From: an uncultured Pseudomonadota bacterium | GTDB lineage: Bacteria; Pseudomonadota; Gammaproteobacteria; Steroidobacterales; Steroidobacteraceae | Reading direction: 5' to 3' | Assembly: GCA_903938365.1 (NCBI GenBank) | Contig: CAJACZ010000159.1 | Coordinates: 1 to 62,962 of the forward strand | Length of the DNA: 62,962 nucleotides | Shown: piece after piece, positions 38,461 through 58,833 of the stretch | Numbering within the stretch: position 1 is the first letter of the stretch | Layout: each line of letters begins with the position of its first letter | Made by a program: the position numbers and the translations under genes | Notes under the pieces: generated by a model | Told to the model about the DNA's origin: nothing | What the model saw: only the letters and a program-made list of their open reading frames with translations | The model's database searches: none

Positions 38461-38545
<85 letters not shown>

Positions 38546-39584: not shown

Positions 39585-40544
39585 ATGAACCTGCCGCCGT
39601 CAACGCACCGGGCGCATTCCCGCCACCTCGAGGGCTTTGCCCTCTCACTCGTCCCGGTGGTCCTGTGGGGCATCCTGCCCGTCGCCATCGCGGGCGTGAT
39701 CGACCCGATGGACGGCGTCACCCTCACCTGGCTCCGGTTCCTGGTCGCCCTGGTCGCTCAGTCCGCCGTGCTGGCCCTCACCGGGACCGCAGGGTGGCCC
39801 TGGCACCACCCGCCCGCCAGCCTGCGCCTGATGCTCATCGTGGCGGTGGGCATCGTGGCGAACTTCTCGCTGTTCTCGGTGTCCCTGCAGTACCTCCCCG
39901 CCTCGACCGGCGCGACGCTGTCGCAGCTGCAGCCGATCATGATGCTGGTGCTGGCGGCGATGCTGACGGGACAGCCTCTCAGACGCGGGCAGGCGCTGGG
40001 CGCGGTGGCCATCGTCGCGGGCACCACGCTGTTCATGCACGACCGCCTGCTCGACATCGTCCAGTGGCATGCAGGCACGGGGGTGGGCGTCGCGCTCTGC
40101 CTCGCGGGCGGCCTGGTGTGGGCGATCGGTGGCGTCGCGCAGATGCGCATCCCGCGCAGCATCGGCATCGGGCACATCATGTGGACGGTCTACGCGCTGG
40201 GCTCCGTGGTTCTGGCGCCCTTCGCGAGTCCCGCCCAGGTGCTGCGACTCGACTCCCTGCAGTGGGCGCTGCTGGCGTTCCTCTGCCTGAACACCATCCT
40301 CGCCTATTCCGCCTTCGCCCTCGCCCTGCGCCGCTGGGACCTGCCGCGGGTCAGCGCCGTGCTCGCGACAGGGGTCGTGTTCACCTATGGGACAGAGTGG
40401 CTCCTGCATGCCGTCCGTCCGGGGCTCGTCACCCCCGAGGCCTGGACCTGGTTCAAAATCGCCGGCTCGCTGCTGGTCATCGGGGGTTCGCTGTCGACGG
40501 CGCTCGCCCAGCCTGCGGTCGGTACTCAGGGCACGGAGAGCTGA
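39585..40544 (+). CDS. EamA/DMT-family transporter
   Basis: A 319-residue inner-membrane protein with about ten hydrophobic segments in two EamA repeats (WGILPVAIAGVIDPMDGVTLTWLRF near residue 28; LVWAIGGVAQMRI near 185). Members export or import metabolites such as amino acids or nucleosides; the substrate here cannot be told. The nitrilase-fold gene starts 53 nt downstream on the same strand, so the two probably form an operon. Confidence 0.9.
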   Translation: MNLPPSTHRAHSRHLEGFALSLVPVVLWGILPVAIAGVIDPMDGVTLTWLRFLVALVAQSAVLALTGTAGWPWHHPPASLRLMLIVAVGIVANFSLFSVSLQYLPASTGATLSQLQPIMMLVLAAMLTGQPLRRGQALGAVAIVAGTTLFMHDRLLDIVQWHAGTGVGVALCLAGGLVWAIGGVAQMRIPRSIGIGHIMWTVYALGSVVLAPFASPAQVLRLDSLQWALLAFLCLNTILAYSAFALALRRWDLPRVSAVLATGVVFTYGTEWLLHAVRPGLVTPEAWTWFKIAGSLLVIGGSLSTALAQPAVGTQGTES

Positions 40545-40597
40545 GCATGCGCTAGCATCGGCGGGGAATGCAGCCCTCACCCCCCGGAGTCATCGGA

Positions 40598-41740
40598 ATG
40601 CGCAGCGCCGTTCTCGTGAAGATGGCAGGTCTCGTGATTTGGGCCATGGCGGCATGCGCCACGGATGCGGCCCTCGGCGCCGCTCCGGCCGCCCCGCAAC
40701 TGGTCCGTCCGGACGGCACCTACCCGAGCGTGCCGCTCGAGAAGGACGTGGTGGTCGTCAAGGTCGTGCAGAACGCCCCCCTCAACCTGCAGAAAGCACC
40801 GTCGCTCAGGGAAGGCCTGGCCACCAACGTCGAACGCATGGCGTACTGGATCAACGAGGCCTGCACCAAGGGCAGGAAGCCGGATTTCATCCTGTTCAAC
40901 GAATTCCCGCTGACCGGCTATTCGTCCGGCACCCGCGAAGAGAAGCTCAGGTTCACGATCCGGGTTCCCGGCCCGGAGACCCAGCGGCTCGGCGAACTCG
41001 CCAAAGCCTGTGACACGTACATCATCTTTGGCAGCTACGCGACCGACGCGGACTGGCCGGGCCACATCCTGAGCCTGAACCCCGTGATCGGCCGCGACGG
41101 CACACTCAGGAAGGTCTACTGGAAGTCGCGCAACGTGATCCGTCTGACGGCGGACGAGATCCCCACGACCACCATCGAGAGCGTGCGGGACAGGTTCCGC
41201 GCCCGCTACGGCATCGAGGAGGAATTCCCGGTCCTGCAGACCGAGTTCGGCAACATCGCCGTAAGCACCGTGCAGATCGACCCGTTCGTGTTCGCGGCCT
41301 ACGCCATGCGCGGAGTGGAAATCATGATGCGCACCTCGACCCTGTTCTCGAAGCTCGACGTGCAGGCTGTCGCCTACTACAACAACCTCTATTCGGCGAT
41401 GTCGAACATCACCTTCCCGGCGGACTCGGGGGTACCCGCGAGCTTCGGCGGAGGCTCGCTGATCGTCGATCCGCGGGGCAAGGTGCTGGCGGAGGATCCG
41501 AGCAACAATGAAAGCATCATCGAGGCGGAAATCCCGATTGCGGCGTTCCGCAAGGGACGCACGATCCCGCGCTACCCGCTGGAAGTGGTCAAGCCGGTGT
41601 TCGACCAGTACCGGCAGGAGATCCCGCTGAACCACATGGACCTGCCGCCCGGGCAGCTGCCAAAGACGAACGAGGAGATGAAGGGCCTGCTGGACCGGAT
41701 CAGCCGCTGGCTGAACCGCGCGCCGACCGCCGCCCGCTAA
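40598..41740 (+). CDS. exported nitrilase-superfamily protein lacking the catalytic Cys
   Basis: A 380-residue protein with an N-terminal signal (VLVKMAGLVIWAMAACATDA; a lipoprotein site at the Cys is possible but the lipobox is weak). The rest resembles aliphatic amidase/nitrilase folds: ILFNEFPLTGY supplies the Glu and DGTLRKVYWKSRN the Lys. The third triad member is missing: where AmiE-like enzymes have an I-I-C-D-D-x-x-Y-P-E stretch, this protein reads GNIAVSTVQIDPFVF, with Val in place of Cys, followed by the conserved AYAMRGVEIMMRTST. ATG 40598 was preferred (GGAG upstream) to ATG 40568. The DNA reads cleanly through this stretch, so no frameshift explains it. Confidence 0.85.
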   Translation: MRSAVLVKMAGLVIWAMAACATDAALGAAPAAPQLVRPDGTYPSVPLEKDVVVVKVVQNAPLNLQKAPSLREGLATNVERMAYWINEACTKGRKPDFILFNEFPLTGYSSGTREEKLRFTIRVPGPETQRLGELAKACDTYIIFGSYATDADWPGHILSLNPVIGRDGTLRKVYWKSRNVIRLTADEIPTTTIESVRDRFRARYGIEEEFPVLQTEFGNIAVSTVQIDPFVFAAYAMRGVEIMMRTSTLFSKLDVQAVAYYNNLYSAMSNITFPADSGVPASFGGGSLIVDPRGKVLAEDPSNNESIIEAEIPIAAFRKGRTIPRYPLEVVKPVFDQYRQEIPLNHMDLPPGQLPKTNEEMKGLLDRISRWLNRAPTAAR

Positions 41741-58757: not shown

Positions 58758-58833
58758 GCTCCTTTCGTCTAGAGGCCTAGGACATAGCCCTCTCAAGGCT
58801 GTAACACGGGTTCGAATCCCGTAAGGAGCGCCA
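58758..58833 (+). tRNA. tRNA-Glu (anticodon CTC), CCA encoded
   Basis: 76 nt: acceptor GCTCCTT/AAGGAGC, discriminator G, anticodon arm TAGCC-CTCTCAA-GGCTG (anticodon CTC), T arm CGGGTTCGAATCCCG, encoded CCA. Close in sequence to E. coli tRNA-Glu in the D and T arms. The LOG-family gene starts 9 nt after the CCA. Confidence 0.97.

Follow-up and report, generated by a model that had tools for sequence, protein, structure and literature searches.

We analysed a window, i.e. the whole stretch of 62,962 nucleotides, that carries on its forward strand a gene for a protein of the carbon-nitrogen hydrolase (CN_hydrolase) family without the catalytic cysteine. The gene, the sites within it and its nearest upstream neighbour can be seen in Table 1. 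A second in-frame ATG at 40568 is a less likely start than the ATG at 40598. The gene is possibly co-transcribed with the EamA-family transporter gene, which is absent from the listed neighbours of close orthologues. Downstream lie purA, hflC and hflK in convergent orientation. The window also holds genes for tRNA-Ser (GGA) at 1340-1429, tRNA-Leu (CAG) at 38461-38545 and tRNA-Glu (CTC) at 58758-58833.

Table 1. Features of the Cys-less CN_hydrolase locus (positions in the window)
Feature	Coordinates	Strand	Remarks
EamA-family transporter gene	39585..40544	+	3' end 53 bases before the Cys-less CN_hydrolase gene, same strand
GGAG, likely ribosome binding site	40586..40589	+	from sequence; 5' of the ATG at 40598
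Cys-less CN_hydrolase-fold gene	40598..41740	+	open frame, 380 aa plus stop
Predicted export signal region, lipobox-like WAMAAC (residues 15-20)	40598..40690	+	motif scan
Glu102 codon (NEFPLTGY), equivalent of the nitrilase catalytic Glu	40901..40903	+	85/88 relatives
WPGH segment with Trp153 and His156	41054..41065	+	Trp in 88/88, His in 87/88 relatives
Lys176 codon (WKSRN), equivalent of the catalytic Lys	41123..41125	+	86/88 relatives
Strand and turn GNIAVSTVQIDP, usual Cys site	41249..41284	+	Ser223; Val225 at the Cys column; two-residue deletion

The window protein is confidently predicted to have the nitrilase fold (alpha-beta-beta-alpha sandwich), in agreement with the initial annotation. 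The Pfam profile PF00795 CN_hydrolase matched it with E=1.2e-15 and 58 bits, above the cut-off of 23.2, and an AlphaFold2 model (pLDDT 78, pTM 0.81) retrieved with Foldseek cyanide dihydratase and formamidase, and also amidase, as best PDB matches (E down to 5e-17). Matches to solved structures by sequence only were weak, the best having an E of 5e-4. The protein fell below the curated cut-offs of the NCBIfam equivalogs for aliphatic amidase (27.8 vs 427 bits) and formamidase (28.9 vs 406 bits). The viral library of Foldseek returned little besides one phage CN_hydrolase, and the plasmid search returned distant matches only, each with less than 30% identity.

Catalysis by nitrilases relies on attack by the Cys, with the Glu as base and the Lys as stabiliser of the tetrahedral intermediate. 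Glu102, Lys176 and the AYAMRGVEI helix are all present in the window protein, as had been noted before, and the strand at the Cys place reads GNIAVSTVQIDPFVF. A profile-profile alignment of the family to the Cys-bearing CN_hydrolases (E=5.9e-51) put Val225 opposite the catalytic Cys, which bears out the earlier claim of Val in its place. The elbow aligns as GNIAVSTV--QIDPF in the window protein to GNLGCLVCYDINFPE in the Cys-bearing proteins, such that the turn after the Cys column is two residues shorter (V--QIDPF vs CYDINFPE). This deletion and the Ser/Thr at position 223 had both been missed by the initial annotation. By the strand alignment, Ser223 is two places upstream of the Cys column; in an alternative register, obtained by counting back from the next helix, Ser223 takes the Cys place itself. 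The predicted model has the strand at 218 to 223 and the helix from 229. The nucleophile elbow is thus remodelled, which goes beyond a simple mutation.

Relatives were collected by a contig scan, which gave 17 sequences at 38-79% identity, and by a genome search, which gave many more; 88 were aligned. The Cys is missing in 84 of them, which answers the question of whether the Cys-less form is conserved. The Cys column holds Val in 63, Thr in 16, Cys in 4, Met in 3, and Ser and Ile in 1 each. Trp153 and Trp175 are kept throughout (88/88), and position 223 is Ser/Thr in 82, the exceptions being Gly in three GAMQ members, His in two and Leu in one. In the subfamily of the window protein, S-T-V-Q was found in 20/20 members, which come from distant MAGs. 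The frame is open, and the earlier statement that the missing Cys is no sequencing slip is supported. Pairwise dN/dS values were 0.03-0.19 (ten pairs). The gene is thus held intact by purifying selection and is not decaying.

The 88 relatives form one clade with SH-aLRT 99 when the motif columns are omitted, in a tree that was obtained by a quick search with midpoint rooting and that has long branches in some deep rows (L054, L141, L004_p625). The only Cys-bearing members, of the SPC-K type (L036, L037, L038 and L099), are a fully supported subclade nested in the 88. Strong matches (E at most 1e-40) were found in 52 of 148 genomes, a set made up of the own genome and its relatives as far as the order. 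A single genome can have as many as about six paralogues (e.g. G012, G129), and the turn motifs differ among the paralogues: STVQ, SAVQ, TAVG, TSTQ, GAMQ, SITP and SPCK. Clear members were found in only 2 of 276 genomes of an even class sample, besides the window's own, and in one of 349 of a phylum sample. The branch is mainly found in one bacterial order and is rare elsewhere; where hosts are named, they are MAGs from the environment that carry the labels Gammaproteobacteria, Rhodospirillaceae, Woeseiaceae and Chromatiales, among others. We place the gene in a branch of the nitrilase fold that is old and Cys-less. The open literature that we searched contained no description of such a branch.

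The N-terminus fits a predicted export signal, consistent with the exported protein of the initial annotation, and its WAMAAC agrees with a lipobox pattern that is loosely defined. Among orthologues of the gene both lipobox and plain Sec signals occur, with clear lipoboxes in L009, L016, L018 and L019; the subfamily as a whole has Sec or lipoprotein-type signals. A Tat-like match for the window protein was rejected as spurious, since it sits upstream of the start codon. A simple motif scan, which start codons may mislead, assigned a twin-arginine signal of Tat-like type to about half of the 88. The same kind of scan found no signal in the SAVQ group (L021 and kin).

No constant neighbour was found among close orthologues of the window gene. 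Neighbours across the clade include VanA-type Rieske oxygenases, UbiD, HpaB and a kynureninase-cyclase pair. At L164:5118-8187, a GAMQ-type Cys-less CN_hydrolase gene is in a same-strand run with genes for kynureninase and a putative cyclase, possibly a kynurenine formamidase. TonB-dependent receptors were considered as constant neighbours (18 of 79 loci) and rejected, because with 26-78 of them per genome about 14 would be expected by chance (an estimate). Of 59 loci, 8 had the domain DUF1838 within 400 bases vs 0.27 expected, and 17 had it within 4 kb vs 2.4, where the expectation was computed from each genome's own DUF1838 density; the eight close loci come from about four lineages, and at that number the Poisson chance is about 2e-4. 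DUF1838 adjoins genes of the SPC and SITP groups, L033 and L034 (both in the wider subfamily of the window gene) and a paralogue of the own genome on contig C252. Same-strand cases beside Cys-less CN_hydrolase genes are L145 (G000:C252), L033, L034, L036, L038, L150, L159, L165 and L180. DUF1838 was present in 51 of the 52 positive genomes vs 8 of the 96 others, a figure that is inflated by shared ancestry, and it is expanded to 20 or more copies in some genomes. It was not found within 5 kb of close orthologues of the window gene, so the link belongs to the clade and not to the window gene.

In the own genome, CN_hydrolase was matched 17 times, by about 16 genes, several with Cys. At least four others lack it: the SITP paralogue on C252, C120:31933 (L052, G000:C120:31933-32688, of a type common to L058), C64:2129 (L054, G000:C64:2129-2737, with FVEGE) and C315:1543 (L044, G000:C315:1543-2199, with TPR, and Asp replacing the Glu). 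The last two are highly diverged and have lost part of the other active-site residues as well. The Cys was thus probably lost more than once.

We propose, with a probability of about 0.5, that members of the clade are working non-thiol enzymes of peripheral catabolism. We infer catalysis, nucleophile and substrate class as follows. Glu102 would be the general base and Lys176 would hold the developing oxyanion, while the Cys would be replaced by the conserved Ser/Thr at 223 or by a Glu-activated water. Substrates would be intermediates of peripheral catabolism, most subfamilies would act on them beyond the cytoplasm, and a DUF1838 protein would be the partner in some lineages. The near-invariance of Glu, Lys and His argues that the old pocket is still in use: Glu is kept in 85/88, Lys in 86/88, His156 in 87/88 and Ser/Thr223 in 82/88, while Cys is present in 4/88. 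The single clade, the low dN/dS, the several paralogues with varied turns, the catabolic neighbours and the DUF1838 linkage in some subfamilies also favour working enzymes. Against this, Ser223 is not invariant and is two residues off the Cys place by strand alignment, Glu and Lys could be retained for ligand binding alone, and no neighbour recurs consistently beside the close orthologues of the window gene. A bolder version is that the whole branch, its elbow remodelled, gave up the Cys thioester for catalysis by Ser/Thr or directly by water and radiated into several, mostly exported paralogues per genome, one subfamily having Cys again at the old column; we regard this as doubtful.

The data are nearly as compatible with an exported pseudoenzyme, a solute receptor or regulator whose pocket would bind, but not turn over, a small ligand of amide or carboxamide-like type. 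We consider this a tentative alternative, somewhat less probable than catalysis: the Cys is gone, the turn is altered, export or lipoprotein signals are present, and solved structures (5h8l, 6ypa) show substrates bound by nitrilases with C-to-S or C-to-A changes. Against it, close orthologues have no constant transporter neighbour, some subfamilies (the L021 group) have no export signal, Glu and Lys are almost totally retained, and the turn motifs vary across paralogues. An inactive subunit in a hetero-oligomer whose other member is a Cys-bearing paralogue from its own genome fits the data less well and is unlikely. Nitrilases in general assemble into dimers and spirals, and a genome with about 16 CN_hydrolase genes, several of them Cys-bearing, could supply such a partner, but a Cys-bearing gene is adjacent only in L015, and the window protein and most relatives have export signals, unlike a cytosolic partner. 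The initial annotation had named close homologues with Cys, pointing to a recent loss in a decaying gene, as the finding that would refute it. The lost Cys agrees with such a pseudogene, which is nevertheless highly improbable, as the open frame, the invariant STVQ of the subfamily across distant MAGs and the low dN/dS contradict it.

Nitrilase superfamily enzymes are defined by Cys-Glu-Lys, and a branch that is large, under selection and for the most part exported, yet has no Cys, would mean either new chemistry on a classic fold or binding proteins of a new class. Every member of the branch would be labelled a carbon-nitrogen hydrolase by automatic annotation. The linkage to DUF1838, which a single paper in the literature searched names, is a first lead on this domain of unknown function.

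Compared to the known nitrilase superfamily (aliphatic amidase, formamidase, cyanide dihydratase, N-carbamoylputrescine amidase), the window protein is alike in predicted fold (Foldseek E about 1e-16), in the Glu and Lys motifs and in the helix after the Cys turn. It differs in having no Cys, a Cys turn with two residues fewer, a predicted export signal, and a C-terminal extension with conserved Pro355 and Trp371. The four SPC members are similar to it, with about 38% identity, Glu and Lys kept and an equally shortened turn, but they have Cys at the Val225 column, a Tat-like signal and not a Sec or lipobox signal, and DUF1838 directly upstream in 3/4 loci. The Cys-to-Ser CN_hydrolases L052 and L058 share with the window protein the nitrilase-fold family and the absence of Cys, whereas they belong to a separate lineage with a full-length turn (ASEEILYPE), in which Ser occupies the Cys column exactly and the Lys column has Arg.
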